From: Treponema sp.
GTDB taxonomy: Bacteria; Spirochaetota; Spirochaetia; Treponematales; Breznakiellaceae
NCBI GenBank assembly: GCA_031275035.1
Contig: JAISPH010000061.1
Coordinates: forward strand, 1 to 14,214
DNA length: 14,214 nucleotides
Direction: 5' to 3'
The position numbers and the translations under genes were made by a program. How positions within the stretch are numbered: the first letter of the stretch is position 1; each line of letters begins with the position of its first letter. Shown here piece after piece: positions 1 through 14,214 of this stretch. Under the pieces are notes generated by a model, which was given only the letters and a program-made list of their open reading frames with translations, had not been told where the DNA came from and searched no databases.

Positions 1-108
1 AAAACCCGGTTGGTTTCGGGAAAGGCTTTGGAAAAAACGGCCAAAAGCCCGTTTTTTCCTCTAAATCTAAGGTTGCTTTCCCAAAAGCTGAAGTTTTGGG
101 AAAGCCTC
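1..108. repeat. Three-hairpin composite repeat, copy 1 (cut by window edge)
   Basis: This is the right part of a composite element that recurs at 524-642 and 14096-14214. The window starts inside its first hairpin (AAAACCCGGTTGGTTT loop region, then GGGAAAGGC as the right arm). The second hairpin is a perfect 11-bp inverted repeat (GGAAAAAACGG and its complement, 30-59). A conserved linker TAAATCTAAGGTTG follows. The third hairpin has left arm GCTTTCCCAAAA and spans 75-105. The arms of hairpins 1 and 2 differ from the other copies, yet remain complementary in hairpin 2. On the minus strand the third hairpin is read as the last codons of the chemotaxis-receptor fragment. Confidence 0.85.
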
Positions 109-285
109 ATCGTCCTGTAGGTTATTTAACGTGTTCCGGCTTATCTCCTGGGCTTGTAAAAAAATAATGCCGGATGAGGATTGTTGAAACAGCACGGTCT
201 GGACTATCAGCGCAAGCAGCGTACAGCTAATACAGGAGAGGAGAATTTTTGTCCTCATGCTTATGGCTTTTTTTCCATCCTTCAC
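67..285 (-). pseudogene. Methyl-accepting chemotaxis protein, 5' fragment ending in a repeat
   Basis: Only the first ~59 residues look like a real protein: a short basic N-terminus (MKDGKKAISMRTK), one hydrophobic membrane segment (about residues 13-33, ILLSCISCTLLALIVQTVLF) and the start of a periplasmic domain (QSSSGIIFLQAQEISRNTLN). This resembles the N-terminus of treponemal methyl-accepting chemotaxis receptors, which are several hundred residues long. From about residue 60 the frame enters the third hairpin of the composite repeat and stops at 67, so sensor, HAMP and signalling domains are absent here. The ATG at 285 has AAGGTG a few bases upstream; a second ATG lies at 258. Either the repeat interrupted the gene, with the rest left of the window, or this is a leftover of a deleted gene. 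The family call rests on pattern recognition of a short piece. Confidence 0.5.
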
Positions 286-317
286 CTTGTTTTCTTCCCG
301 CCCCGGAAGATACCGTG

Positions 318-358
318 GGGGGCCTGCGGGGAACCGGCCTGGTCCCCCGCAGGCCCCC
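318..358. other. Strong GC-rich inverted repeat (14-bp arms)
   Basis: A perfect 14-bp stem (left arm GGGGGCCTGCGGGG, 318-331; right arm 345-358) encloses a 13-base loop. It lies 33 bases upstream of the ATG of the chemotaxis-receptor fragment, so on the minus strand it would fold in that gene's leader or upstream DNA. There is no T-run after it in either direction, so I do not call it an intrinsic terminator. A weaker hairpin (GCTGCC 398-403 with 412-417) follows. Confidence 0.6.
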
Positions 359-424
359 TGAGCATATCACGGAAAGCATTGAAAGTACGGATTGCGCGCT
401 GCCGCTTTCAGGGCAGCCGCCTTA

Positions 425-523
425 GGAACCGTACAGAAATAACATGACCGTTTGGTCATGTTATTTCCTTATTGCATAAGCAATTAAAATAAAATGCTGT
501 GCATTTTATTTATGTACAGTTCC
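425..523. repeat. Nested palindromic element with two internal hairpins
   Basis: The ends form an 11-bp inverted repeat with one mismatch (GGAACCGTACA 425-435; TGTACAGTTCC 513-523). Inside sit a perfect 14-bp hairpin with a GTTT loop (436-467, left arm GAAATAACATGACC), a small 5-bp hairpin (468-480) and a perfect 11-bp hairpin with a TGT loop (487-511, left arm AAATAAAATGC). The whole could fold into a closed multi-branch junction or a cruciform. It has no coding content. It looks like a small MITE-like or structured-RNA element, but I know no family for it. It abuts composite repeat copy 2. Confidence 0.6.
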
Positions 524-642
524 GAGCATTTCCCAAAACCCGGTTGGTTTTAGGAAATGCTCTTGAAAATGCGGTCTAAAGCCCGCTTTTTCCCATAAAT
601 CTAAGGTTGCTTTCCCAAAAACTGAAGTTTTGGGAAAGCCTC
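524..642. repeat. Three-hairpin composite repeat, copy 2
   Basis: This copy is complete and nearly identical to 14096-14214. Hairpin 1 (524-562) has arms GAGCATTTCC / GGAAATGCTC plus AAAACC / GGTTTT around CGGTT. Hairpin 2 is imperfect here (GCGG..CCCGC with an AAAA/TTTT extension). The linker TAAATCTAAGGTTG follows. Hairpin 3 (about 609-640) carries the core CCAAAAACTGAAGTTTTGG. TTCC stands immediately before and immediately after the element, which could be a 4-bp target duplication, though so short a match can be chance. Confidence 0.85.
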
Positions 643-677
643 TTCCTTATGAGGTTTTTCAGGAAAGCCGCCGGTAA

Positions 678-730
678 CGGGGGCTTTCATATAAATTTGA
701 AAGCCCCCGCGCCAGCGCGGTTCTTTTTTT
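678..730 (+). terminator. Two adjacent hairpins followed by a T-run on the plus strand
   Basis: The first stem is an 11-12 bp inverted repeat (CGGGGGCTTTC 678-688 with 699-709). The second is a short GC stem (CCGCGC 707-712, GCGCGG 715-720) followed directly by TTCTTTTTTT (721-730), the textbook form of an intrinsic terminator reading rightwards. No plus-strand gene precedes it, so it may end an RNA from the repeat-rich DNA at 425-660 or block antisense transcription into the next gene. For the minus-strand gene ending at 792 the first hairpin lies downstream but lacks a T-run, so it is at best a 3' stabiliser. Confidence 0.45.
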
Positions 731-791
731 CCTCCTCACCGAGTTATAACGCGGCCGCCCCGCTCCCGCTTTGCCTGAACCGCGGCCTGCT

Positions 792-1889
792 TTAGTCCGC
801 CGGGGCGGGGGCCTTGAGGACCAGCGTGAGGGGGAGGTGGTCGCTGAGGCCGAAACCGGTACGGGGGTTATAGGCGTTGGGATACCCCTGGGCATTGAGG
901 AAGGGTTCCCGGGCCCCCACCTGGCAGGTGTCGAAATCCCAGCCGCTATGGTCAAAGAGGGCCTCGGATAACAGCAGGTGATCGATGGTTTCCCAGGCGT
1001 CCCGGTAATAATAGGACCCCGGGGACAGTTCGATTCCCCAGGGGGAATAAAAGGCCCGGGAGCCCGGGGGGAAATATTCCGCCCGGGGCGGTTTTTCCCC
1101 GCTGATAATGAGAAAGTCCTCGCGGCCCCCGGCGGGAATTTTACCGGCGTATTCAGCCGCCCCGGGATCGTCCGGGAGCAGGGCGCTCTGGTAGGCGCCC
1201 TTTTGACGGTAAAATTCATCGTGATTTTCGTTGAGATCCCCCAGGATTATCACCGGCATCCCGGGATTTTCCCGGCCGAGCTCCTCCATCCTGCGGTTGA
1301 TAATCCAGGCCGAGGCCCGGCGGAGGGGTTCGGTGTTTTTATCCCCCCCGAGCTTTGATTTCCAGTGGCAGATAAAGAGAACCAGGGGCCGGCCCTCCGG
1401 TTCAAGCCACAGCTCCAGAACAGGCCGGGGGACGGCTTCTTCCCCGTAAACCGCGGAATGGGTTTTGGTCTTGACAAAGGGGTAGCGGCTGAGAACGCCG
1501 ATACCCAGGGACGCTCCCGGGTTATGGGCGAAAAAAGCCCACCGGTAGTTTTGCTTTGCCAGCGGGCCCGAAGCGAGGGTTTCCAGAATCCGGAGGTTTT
1601 CCACCTCTATCATCCCCAGAATATCGGCCCCTATGTGGTCCGCCCCCTGGGCGAGGAAGGCCAGCCGGGCCAGATATTTTTCCTCGGACCACCCCGACGA
1701 AGCGGTGTATTCCCCGTATTCGTTCCCGGTTTCGGTTCCGTCAAACAGGGCCTGTACATTCCAGGCGGCAATGGTTACGGTCCCCAGCGGCTGGGAACCC
1801 CGGACAGAAGACACCGTACAAGCGGCGAGCCCCAAAACCATGGGGATGAACCCCAGGGCAAGCCTGTTTTTTCGTGATGAAATTATCAT
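792..1889 (-). CDS. Endonuclease/exonuclease/phosphatase-fold lipoprotein
   Basis: This 365-residue exported protein is predicted to cleave phosphodiester or phosphomonoester bonds; its substrate is unknown. All metal and catalytic motifs of the endonuclease/exonuclease/phosphatase fold are present: Asn44 in AAWNVQ, Glu95/Glu97 in GMIEVEN, His175 in ICHWKS, Asp218 and Asn220 in GDLNEN, Asp303 in TIDHLL, and Asp350-His351 in GLSDHLPL. The N-terminus has a basic start, a hydrophobic stretch and a lipobox LGLAAC with Cys24, so it should be a membrane-anchored lipoprotein acting outside the cytoplasm, perhaps as a nuclease scavenging nucleotides or as a phosphatase. I chose the ATG at 1889 because AGGAGG lies 7 bases upstream. 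An upstream start at 1955 would only translate the adjacent ~62-bp repeat. It is the only gene here without an obvious sugar role and may have its own promoter within that repeat. Confidence 0.85.
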   Translation of the reverse strand: MIISSRKNRLALGFIPMVLGLAACTVSSVRGSQPLGTVTIAAWNVQALFDGTETGNEYGEYTASSGWSEEKYLARLAFLAQGADHIGADILGMIEVENLRILETLASGPLAKQNYRWAFFAHNPGASLGIGVLSRYPFVKTKTHSAVYGEEAVPRPVLELWLEPEGRPLVLFICHWKSKLGGDKNTEPLRRASAWIINRRMEELGRENPGMPVIILGDLNENHDEFYRQKGAYQSALLPDDPGAAEYAGKIPAGGREDFLIISGEKPPRAEYFPPGSRAFYSPWGIELSPGSYYYRDAWETIDHLLLSEALFDHSGWDFDTCQVGAREPFLNAQGYPNAYNPRTGFGLSDHLPLTLVLKAPAPAD

Positions 1890-2092: not shown

Positions 2093-2133
2093 GCGGGGCT
2101 GTTCCAAAAACTGAAGTTTTGGAACAGCCCCGC
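2093..2133 (-). repeat. Hairpin 3 variant of the composite repeat, downstream of araA
   Basis: A near-perfect hairpin with 13-bp outer arms (GCGGGGCTGTTCC 2093-2105; complement 2121-2133) around the same core, CCAAAAACTGAAGTTTTGG, that defines hairpin 3 of the composite repeat. The outer arms differ from the usual GGCTTTCCC/GGGAAAGCC on both sides together. It lies 34 bases after the araA stop codon on the transcript. No T-run follows on the minus strand, so it may protect the 3' end of the pentose-operon mRNA rather than terminate it. Confidence 0.7.
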
Positions 2134-3667: not shown

Positions 3668-3992
3668 ACCTGCCTCCCCGTCAAAATTGAGCCCCGGAAA
3701 CCGGGGCCGCCGCAAAACCCGGCCGGCGCCGAAACCGCCCCAGGGCGCCTCAACCCGGCCGCGGTTAAACCGGCGGATCTTGCCTTTGAATTTGGGCGCA
3801 TTCCCGCCTGCGGCGGGAACCGGGCTTTTCGGGGCTCCGCTTCGCTCCGGCCCCGGCGCTCCGCGCCGGGGCTGCTCCGCACCCCTCCAATCCCTTGCGC
3901 GGTTCCGTATCCGGCGCCGGTTCTCTTAATCAAGCACCCTTTATGTTCATCACCCGCCGGGGCTGTTCCGGAACCCGGCCGCGGTTAAACCG
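3668..3992. other. GC-rich palindrome cluster between kinase and araA genes
   Basis: This stretch has no credible gene. It holds three perfect hairpins: GCCCCGG/CCGGGGC with an AAA loop (3691-3707), TTCCCGCC/GGCGGGAA (3801-3819) and CCCCGGCGC/GCGCCGGGG with a TCC loop (3851-3871). A 21-bp direct repeat beginning AACCCGGCCGCGG occurs at 3752-3772 and again, identical, at 3972-3992. The first hairpin sits 24 bases upstream of the araA start, so it could affect araA mRNA stability or translation. The region resembles clustered REP-like intergenic repeats. Whether transcription reads through it from the kinase gene is unknown. Confidence 0.6.
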
Positions 3993-4054
3993 CTAGGAGC
4001 CTGTTGCACTTGTGAATTTTTATACGATTTTGCGCTGAAGCGCAACAAACTGCT
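3993..4054 (-). repeat. 62-bp interspersed repeat, copy 3
   Basis: Same element as at 1901 and 2020, in the same orientation, with small changes (TTGTGAATTTT for TGGTGGATTTT). It carries TTGTTG (4043-4048) and TATAAA (4019-4024) 18 bases apart. Its ends read CGCTAG...CTAGCG, and the terminal CTAG supplies the TAG stop codon of the kinase gene, so the element abuts the coding region exactly. Confidence 0.85.
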
Positions 4055-6854: not shown

Positions 6855-8399
6855 TTAACTGGACAGAATATGGCCCATGATCTGTTCCTGGGTGGCGGTT
6901 CTGCCCTCCAGCTCACCGGTAATCCGCCCCTCGCTCATGACGTAAATCCTGTCGCTCATGCCGATAATTTCCGGCATTTCGCTGGATATAAGGATGCAGG
7001 CTATACCCTGGGCCGCCAGGGTGTTGATGATCGTGTAGATCTCGTGTTTGGCCCCCACGTCAATGCCCCGGGTCGGCTCGTCCAGAATGAGGATCCGGGG
7101 GTCCGAGAAGAGCCACTTGGCCAGCACCACCTTTTGCTGGTTTCCCCCGGAGAGGTTCCCCGCAAGCTGTAAAATCGACGGCGTTTTGGTATTGAGTTTT
7201 TTACGGTAATCCTCCGCCGCGAGGATCTCCTCGTGTTCGTTAATCACGCTGTTCCGGGCGATTTTTTTCAGTTTTGCCAGGGTGGTATTTTCTTTGATGG
7301 TCCCGATCAGCACGAGGCCGAATTCCTTCCGGTCCTCGGTCATATAGGCGAGTCCCTGTTCAATCGCCCGGGGAATTGAATTGAGGTTCACTTCCCTGCC
7401 GTTGATAAAGGTTTGGCCGCTGATGTTCTCGCCGTAATACTTGCCGAAAATGCTGGTAGCCAGTTCCGTGCGCCCCGCCCCCACGAGGCCCGCCAGGCCC
7501 ACCACTTCCCCGGCCCGGACGGCGATATTCACCTTATCCAGCTTCTTCCGTTCGGGATTGTCGGGGTTATACACCGTCCAGTCCCGCACCTCAAACACCA
7601 CGTCCCCGATGGGGTTGTTCCGTTTGGGAAAGCGGTCGGTGATTTCCCGCCCAACCATGCCCTTGATGATCCGCTCTTCGCTGATAGAGGCCCTGCCGGC
7701 GGAATCCCGCTCCACTTCCAGGGTCTCGATGGTCCTGCCGTCCCGTAGTATGGTGATATTGTCCGCTACCGCCGCCACTTCGTTGAGCTTGTGGGAGATC
7801 AGCACCGATGAAATGTTGTGCAGATCCCGGAGTTCCCGCAGAATTTGGAGCAGATGTTCGCTGTCGTTCTCGTTGAGCGCCGAGGTGGGCTCGTCCAGGA
7901 TCAGGATCTTGGCGTCCTTTGCCAGGGCCTTGGCGATTTCCACCAGCTGCTGTTTACCCACCCCCAGCTTGTTCACCGGCATATTGGGGTTTTCTTCCAG
8001 CCCCAGTTTCCGCATATAGATAAGGGCGTCGTCCCTTGTTTTATCCCAGTTAATGATATTATATTTTGCCCGCTCGTCCCCCAGGAAAATATTTTCCGCG
8101 ATAGAAAGATAGGGGCTGAGGGCCAATTCCTGATGGATAATCACGATCCCCGCCTTTTCACTTTGTTTGATGTTGGCAAAGGCGCAGGGAAGCCCTTCAA
8201 ACACGATCTCCCCCTCATAACTGCCGTGGGGATAGACCCCGGAGAGAATTTTCACCAGGGTGGATTTTCCCGCGCCGTTCTCTCCCACCAGGGCATGGAT
8301 CTCCCGCCGATTTACCCGGAGATTGACCTTATCCAGGGCCACCACGCCGGGAAAGGTCTTGGTGATGTTTTTCATTTCAAGCAAAGCTTGATGAGGCAT
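6855..8399 (-). CDS. mmsA: Monosaccharide ABC transporter ATP-binding protein (MmsA/GguA type)
   Basis: Fused double ATPase of a CUT2 sugar importer, 514 residues, driving uptake through MmsB. The first nucleotide-binding domain has Walker [10 protein letters not shown] (39-47), Q-loop Gln90, a degenerate signature LGVGKQQ (145-151) and Walker B KILILDEP (164-171). The second has a degenerate Walker A ([10 protein letters not shown]) but a full signature LSGGNQQK and Walker [14 protein letters not shown]. This asymmetry is normal in the RbsA/XylG/MglA family. The ATG at 8399 has AAGGAG 6 bases upstream; the longer frame from 8552 would translate the intergenic hairpins. It lies between chvE and mmsB; the 153-bp gap after chvE holds strong hairpins that probably lower its expression relative to the binding protein. 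Confidence 0.95.
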
Positions 8400-8418
8400 G
8401 AAACACTCCTTAATCACA

Positions 8419-8494
8419 GAAGCTCTTTGAAAATGGAGGCTTTCCCAAAAACTGAAGTTTTGGGAAAGCCTCAATGACCATTTCAAAGAGCTTC
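8419..8494 (-). repeat. Nested hairpin between chvE and mmsA, built round a hairpin 3 repeat
   Basis: The outer arms GAAGCTCTTTGAAAATGG (8419-8436) and its near-complement (8478-8494) enclose a standalone copy of hairpin 3 of the composite repeat (GAGGCTTTCCC arm from 8436; complement to 8472; core CCAAAAACTGAAGTTTTGG). The result is a very long stem of about 76 bases just 19 bases upstream of the mmsA start codon. On the mRNA it would form a strong structure between binding-protein and ATPase genes, likely affecting mRNA stability, ribosome access or processing. It looks like a repeat sitting inside an older palindrome. Confidence 0.75.
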
Positions 8495-8537
8495 CAAGGA
8501 AAAACAGAACCGGCTCCAAACCCCGGGGGTTTGGAGC
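8495..8537 (-). terminator. Terminator-like hairpin directly after chvE
   Basis: An 11-bp perfect stem (GCTCCAAACCC 8513-8523; complement 8527-8537, loop CGG) begins 15 bases past the chvE stop codon. Reading leftwards it is followed by CCGGTTCTGTTTTTCC, with a five-T run at 8504-8500, slightly displaced from the stem. It could be a leaky terminator or attenuator, giving more chvE than downstream mRNA. Confidence 0.6.
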
Positions 8538-8552
8538 GGGTAAAAGCTTCAA

Positions 8553-14095: not shown

Positions 14096-14214
14096 GAGCA
14101 TTTCCCAAAACCCGGTTGGTTTTAGGAAATGCTCTTGAAAAAGCGGTCTTAAAGCCCGCTTTTCCCCATAAATCTAAGGTTGCTTTCCCAAAAACTGAAG
14201 TTTTGGGAAAGCCT
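14096..14214. repeat. Three-hairpin composite repeat, copy 3 (reaches window edge)
   Basis: Nearly identical to 524-642, with only a few differences, all in or near hairpin 2. Hairpin 1 arms are GAGCATTTCC / GGAAATGCTC with AAAACC / GGTTTT inside; hairpin 2 pairs AAAAGCGG with CCGCTTTT better than in copy 2; then the TAAATCTAAGGTTG linker and hairpin 3 with core CCAAAAACTGAAGTTTTGG. The element lies about 135 bp upstream of the CUT1 binding-protein gene, so it marks the upstream border of that operon. The right end runs to the window edge. Confidence 0.85.

Follow-up and report, generated by a model that had tools for sequence, protein, structure and literature searches.

A three-hairpin repeat of treponeme genomes, probably a MITE moved in trans by an IS1182/IS5-like transposase

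Several families of MITEs have been described in bacteria, among them RUP and NEMIS (PMC3733652) and Correia and QMITE (PMC10969869). The treponeme repeat analysed here resembles these bacterial MITEs in that it is gene-free, multicopy, often intergenic and able to fold, has terminal inverted repeats bordered by short direct repeats, and presumably moves in trans. Unlike other bacterial MITEs, it consists of three separate hairpins, and both of its ends are themselves palindromic. Its lone forms, at 37 nt, fall below the range of 50–500 bp given for MITEs in PMC10969869, a source that also gives QMITE1 copies down to 39 bp. With REP, REPIN and BIME elements the repeat shares small paired palindromes and a mostly intergenic position; it differs from them by its target-site duplications and in that a link to RAYT was not found. 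Sequence comparisons make it very likely that the repeat is a MITE which a candidate IS1182/IS5-like transposase, or a close relative of it, moves in trans. This MITE family of treponemes is new in itself, while the type of element is already known.

The window, by which we mean the whole stretch of 14,214 nucleotides that was analysed, contained the following features:

1..108, plus strand: second composite copy, without its first 11 nt (window start); sequence read and repeat search
520..523, no strand: left target-site duplication TTCC; sequence read
524..642, plus strand: complete three-hairpin element (probable MITE), 119 nt, ends GAGC...GCCTC, first bases GAGCATTTCCCAAAA, last bases TTTTGGGAAAGCCTC; sequence read, member of the 31-copy alignment
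524..562, plus strand: hairpin A, outer end GAGCATTTCCCAAAA, TTTCCC end class; alignment and covariation
565..592, plus strand: hairpin B, internal, A/T-flanked GC stem; alignment and covariation
596..609, plus strand: linker TAAATCTAAGGTTG; sequence read, differs between species in the alignment
609..642, plus strand: hairpin C, loop ACTGAAG, outer end GCCTC; 98.8% of cells paired in the alignment
643..646, no strand: right target-site duplication TTCC; sequence read
about 2098..2128, plus strand: degenerate lone hairpin with the same core, ends now GCGGGGC..GCCCCGC; repeat search
8436..8472, plus strand: lone 37-nt version with the outer ends and the loop ACTGAAG; AATG duplicated at 8432-8435 and 8473-8476
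14096..14214, plus strand: third composite copy, without its last base (window end); sequence read and repeat search

The three composite copies, which the sequence-only reading had described, were confirmed by reading the sequence and by a repeat search as one direct-repeat family, the other two matching the first at 88% and 79% of positions in an ungapped comparison of 107 nt. The order that had been claimed for them (a hairpin with loop CGGTT, an A/T-flanked GC hairpin, the linker TAAATCTAAGGTTG and a hairpin with core CCAAAAnCTGAAGTTTTGG, copy 1-108 having G at n) was found on reading in every part, and the list of open reading frames agreed with the claim that the repeat has no coding capacity. 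The full unit is 119 nt, and two of the three copies sit at the window's ends. In genome G001, too, several copies come to within a few bases of a contig end, so the window probably represents a contig whose assembly broke off at the repeats. The copy at 524-642 had a predicted folding energy of -47.8 kcal/mol (z = -7.0), and none of 200 shuffles was as stable. Rfam gave no match over the gathering threshold anywhere in the window. The sequence-only reading knew of no named family that matches the repeat; none was found in Rfam either, and no description of the repeat family turned up among the best-ranked matches in open-licence literature.

We aligned 31 of 42 composites (112-126 nt, with duplications) and compared their pairing with that of shuffled alignments, which do not control for the kinship of the copies, either here or in the comparison of hairpins A and C. 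Standard pairs made up 93.0% of the paired cells in the 31 copies (85.9% in shuffles), two-sided changes were present in 17 of 39 pairs (9.7 in shuffles), and 83 cells carried such changes (30.5 in shuffles, with 0 of 500 shuffles as high). Sliding the partner columns by one to three lowered every pairing measure. The internal hairpin B had two-sided changes in 5 of its 11 modelled pairs in the 31 copies. The 5-base stems of hairpins A and C were identical in 26 of the 31 copies, against a mean of 10.6 and a maximum of 20 in shuffles; such joint change of the two ends of an element would be expected where a single protein binds them. The covariation does not show an RNA function, because palindromic transposon DNA would covary too. 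A structured RNA, which had been considered for this repeat, would fit the covarying stems, as would a transposon, and the repeat is probably to be read as mobile DNA rather than as an unknown RNA machine.

Terminal inverted repeats (GAGC..CCAAAA / TTTTGG..CTC) were present at both element ends; the left outer end was GAGCnnTTCCCAAAA or GAGCnTGTTCCAAAA, and the right ends were near-inverses of these. A variant of hairpin A of 58-59 nt, with the inner hairpin TGTGCGC..GCGCAC, also occurred alone (L052, 1678-1735; L033, 1478-1536). As a separate observation, a tandem short palindrome, CCAAGCAAAGCTTGTCTC, with variants, interrupts the left arm of hairpin C in contigs of Im510_bin105 (L019, L022, L047, L120).

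In the printed contexts of the copies, short direct repeats were seen at the element borders. Exact 4-bp duplications bordered 30 of 38 elements of 80-150 nt, against 1.15 expected from shuffled flanks; this is the controlled figure, although a few of its rows share an end. No 3-bp or 5-bp duplication was found in these 38 elements. The corresponding 4-bp figures were 9 of 24 (0.57 expected) for elements of 25-45 nt, 3 of 9 (0.46) for 45-80 nt and 2 of 10 (0.21) for 150-400 nt. A looser finder, which may use the same right end for two different left ends and favours ends that give a duplication, reported duplications at 63 of 106 composites. The target at the 63 composites with duplications was A/T-rich and symmetric, the fourth base outside the duplication being A or T in 95% on both sides. 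The repeat came in size classes of 37, about 59, 119 and about 140 nt. Among lone forms, 11 of 28 had a duplication (0.65 expected in a nearly equal set of 29, which had included hairpin Cs of composites and was re-filtered to 28), and eight of the 28 rows, starting GAAG, are probably still composite remnants.

Further evidence of insertion was obtained at the lone copy at 8436-8472, the one copy for which an empty site is documented. Its neighbours are genes for a sugar-binding protein and an ABC ATPase (Pfam assignments), and the orthologous gap was readable in 28 of 30 relatives' loci. In G016 (L358) the gap contained GAAGCTCTTTGAAAATAACTATTTCAAAGAGCTTC; the window has the same arms split by the 37-nt element plus one extra AATG. 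The spacer (about 8400-8552, the presumed start codon being 8397-8399) contains an older hairpin, GAAGCTCTTT..AAAGAGCTTC, which is uninterrupted in six relatives (G016, G057, G047, G052, G060 and G051) and in whose loop the window's lone copy sits. In G017 the gap holds an element hairpin and the older hairpin is absent, and in G056 a related palindrome lies elsewhere in the gap, flanked on either side by AAAT. The idea that hairpins are generally the target was not supported: no general hairpin was found at 68 reconstructed empty sites (mean of 6.69 matches versus 6.81 in the null), and only the window's site stood out.

The repeat is not confined to the window. Scanning the species genomes for CCAAAAACTGAAGTTTTGG gave at least 120 stretches, and among those listed every record was titled Treponema sp. 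or Spirochaetaceae bacterium; their sample codes look like those of termite-gut metagenomes. In the family of locus L004 (genome G002), 97 of 195 genomes had the core with one free base, with up to 67 matches per genome, and the reversed core gave 0 matches in the same 195 genomes. In a draw across the phylum, 6 of 392 genomes carried the core; five of these belong to the family set, and the sixth, G375, which had a single match, lies outside it. A search of viral contigs with a single 27-base form of the palindrome gave 0 matches.

Transposase families were searched in the carrier genomes and across the family. No insertion sequence of the kind sought was found among long elements with MITE ends in 679 kb of two genomes or in the loci first fetched, nor as any inverted repeat with a 4-bp duplication around 42 of 52 transposase loci. 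The candidate surfaced among 20 further transposase regions. It is an insertion sequence of about 1.2 kb, found in L405 and L404, with a DDE transposase of 365 or 367 aa, and its end classes GAGCCTGTTCCAAAAC and GAGCCTTTCCCAAAAC match the end classes of the MITE. In L405 the right end was GAGCCTGTTCCAAAAC and the left end CCTGTTCCAAAAC, altered in its first three bases; L404 had GAGCCTGTTGCAAAAC at both ends. Relatives of the candidate transposase were present in 51 of the 195 family genomes, many as pieces at contig ends. With one mismatch allowed, 23 of 28 left and 24 of 27 right flanks of the transposase bore GAG[CG]C..AAAA ends, counts in which two left loci and one right locus duplicate listed copies (L441 and L453 are repeats). 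The TGTTCC and TTTCCC classes (TGTTCCAAAAC, TTTCCCAAAAC) were found in both the insertion sequence and the MITEs. In the TGTTCC class the right end directly follows the stop codon (TAGGGGTTTTGGAACAGGCTC), and the TTTCCC class includes the window's copies and the insertion-sequence copies L411, L419 and L422. In G005 the classes did not agree, the composites being of the TTTCCC class and the insertion-sequence ends of the GTTCC class.

The candidate proteins scored 88.4 and 101.9 bits with the IS1182 NCBIfam model (cut-off 270) and 71.1 and 68 bits with the IS5 model NF033581 (cut-off 140; curated IS5 scores 110-140), and thus remained under both cut-offs, while Pfam DUF772 and DDE_Tnp_1 were over theirs. 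The likeness to IS1182 lies in this best NCBIfam score, in the two Pfam domains and in the larger IS1182-type elements of treponemes, which have related ends; the difference lies in a length of 365-367 aa and in a score well below 270 bits. On these scores the candidate transposase is near IS1182 and IS5 and a member of neither curated model. The larger IS1182-type elements of the family have nAGnCTGTnnnAAAA ends, and a complete one (L305) is 1,635 bp long, with a 505-aa frame and the duplication GCGG. In the 217,641 bases surrounding such transposases this end pattern was counted 31 times, a number that includes some matches from MITE copies in those loci, and 0 times when the same bases were reversed.

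In ten distinct insertion-sequence copies with both ends, we found an exact 4-bp duplication in two (L413 and L438), a 5-bp duplication in one (L411) and none in seven. The transposase was present in 30 of 97 core-bearing and 21 of 98 core-free genomes, an association that was not significant (Fisher p = 0.14; counts made by hand from listings), and the MITE-rich genomes G001, G004, G009 and G019 gave no transposase match. Because draft genomes lose multicopy elements, the missing association carries less weight, though not none.

One locus, L418, joins the insertion sequence to the composite. It contains a degenerate transposase up to its stop codon and a worn terminal repeat (...TTTAGGATTTTTGATCAGGC), followed by TTCCG, hairpin B, TTAAATCTAAGG and hairpin C to GCCTC. 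From this order of parts, the insertion sequence therefore occupies the place that hairpin A has in the composites. Read from this arrangement, either hairpin A would be what is left of a collapsed insertion sequence that had a B-C tail, or hairpin A would have given way to the insertion sequence. The arrangement comes from one degenerate copy, which the start of the contig truncates on the left, and no B-C tail was seen after the other right ends that were read.

An IS4-family element in L211 (118 bits with NF033592, cut-off 115), which first seemed to end in the MITE's terminal repeat, was rejected as a partner; its own ends are CCCACTGTCAACAAGTTAAG, and it sits beside or within a GAGCCTGTT-ended element. 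At three places in G010 (L109, L199 and L211), an IS4-family end adjoins GAGCCTGTT-ended sequence, with a target like AGACTTCCCCC.

The window also contained a second repeat family, GAGCCTGTTGCAC...GCGCTGAAGCGCAACAAACTG, at 1897-1961, 2017-2081 and 3990-4054, the third copy being flanked by CTAG. An IS1182-like element in L319 ends in GAGCCTGTTGTGCTTC and CAGTTTGTTGCGCTTC, both beside CTAG. Because its ends resemble those of this element, the second repeat family is probably a MITE of an IS1182-like element.

Among the alternatives that had been listed for the three-hairpin repeat, the non-autonomous mobile element is supported, because of the 4-bp duplications, the empty site and the insertion sequence with matching ends, and the terminator is not. 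The transposase, acting in trans, would most probably recognise both ends of the MITE, move the element and leave 4-bp target-site duplications. Observed were the duplications, the symmetric A/T-rich target, the empty site of one lone form, the matching ends of the insertion sequence and the joint change of the two end stems; that the mover is probably the candidate or a close relative is what we infer. Hairpin A may be a collapsed insertion sequence, as the one copy in L418 suggests. Many of the lone 37-nt forms would be composites that have suffered a deletion between the repeated CCAAAA stretches of hairpins A and C, because GAGC, the start of hairpin A, also opens 8 of the 11 lone forms that carry duplications, while their right part matches hairpin C; such a deletion would keep the flanking duplication intact. 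We tentatively raise the possibility, which we would not call likely, of a self-collapsing series in which a parent built of an insertion sequence, hairpin B, a linker and hairpin C would shed its transposase part, leaving hairpin A in the 119-nt composite, and the composite would in turn shed A-B between the CCAAAA repeats, leaving a 37-nt palindrome with both ends, each stage being mobile. If this were true, 37 nt would be near the smallest transposing unit known.

The hairpins might also be spread by transposition and kept for a function of the host, as an mRNA stabiliser, a processing site or a site of nucleoid binding. REP in the malE-malF gap is a known case. The lone copy lies in a similar position, between the genes for a sugar-binding protein and an ABC ATPase, where a hairpin could alter mRNA decay and where an older hairpin was present beforehand. 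The strong folding of the copy at 524-642 and the covariation of the stems beyond controls, that of internal hairpin B included, also fit such a function, but covariation is expected of palindromic DNA. The mapping of copies against genes that the sequence-only reading had proposed gave, for 63 composites, 18 between tandem, 12 between divergent and 4 between convergent genes; these context counts, which rest on a crude longest-frame gene caller, do not include the 19 composites at locus ends or the 10 that overlap frames. Between tandem genes, 11 copies ran with the genes and 7 against, which, together with the 4 of 63 between convergent genes, argues against a host function. We saw no sign of a host role in these contexts or in the terminator-like sites, and consider this reading rather unlikely.

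IS1272 has been reported to replace stem-loops (PMC5678879). The hairpins could similarly be both product and target of stem-loop replacement by an IS1182-type transposase, as would fit the lone copy in the older hairpin's loop, the element hairpin found in its stead in G017, the insertion sequence in hairpin A's place in L418 and the 7 of 10 insertion-sequence copies without duplications. Against this stand the lack of a general hairpin at the 68 reconstructed empty sites and the ordinary duplications at most composites of 80-150 nt, so that we regard such replacement as improbable. We hold it equally improbable that the MITE is moved by another DDE transposase with similar ends that escaped detection. 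The candidate is not significantly associated with the core, and the larger IS1182-type elements have related nAGnCTGTnnnAAAA ends, one of them (L305) with a 4-bp duplication; however, among the elements examined, only the candidate had both TGTTCCAAAAC and TTTCCCAAAAC ends, and in L418 it is followed by B, linker and C.

A transcription terminator or boundary cassette is very improbable and was rejected. There was one terminator-like match, at 609-639, but its tail CTCTTCCTTA is no continuous T run, and window positions 1-1000 held 2 terminator-like sites versus a shuffle mean of 2.2, i.e., chance level. In addition, 42 flanks faced gene starts and 26 faced stops, according to the crude gene caller, and the orientations in tandem genes were 11 versus 7.

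Least credible of all is a REP/REPIN element moved by a RAYT (Y1_Tnp) transposase, which would suit a palindromic, mostly intergenic, high-copy repeat with hairpins in inverted pairs and the PF01797 matches in 14 of 20 carrier genomes, but is opposed by the 6 of 20 carriers without such a match, by a GTAG or CGTC tag not having been noticed, by the 4-bp duplications, which are not expected of this transposase class, and by the 30 fetched Y1_Tnp loci, of which 2 had the repeat motif, on one side of the gene only; a RAYT partner was rejected, no RAYT gene among these 30 loci having the repeat on both sides.

Y1_Tnp matches were themselves numerous in some genomes: 47, mostly weak (e.g., L142, 1222-1890, minus strand), in the 2.0-Mb draft G003, 18 in G010 and 11 in G018. 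One G003 sequence that was read had no apparent HUH motif.

A MITE explains a repeat that seems to break treponeme assemblies, and provides a marker for insertion polymorphism in treponeme genomes. The insertion sequence and its 119-nt and 37-nt counterparts form a natural series for the minimum DNA that a DDE transposase moves. The palindromic ends of such transposons scatter RNA-like hairpins between genes, where they can be mistaken for structured RNAs.
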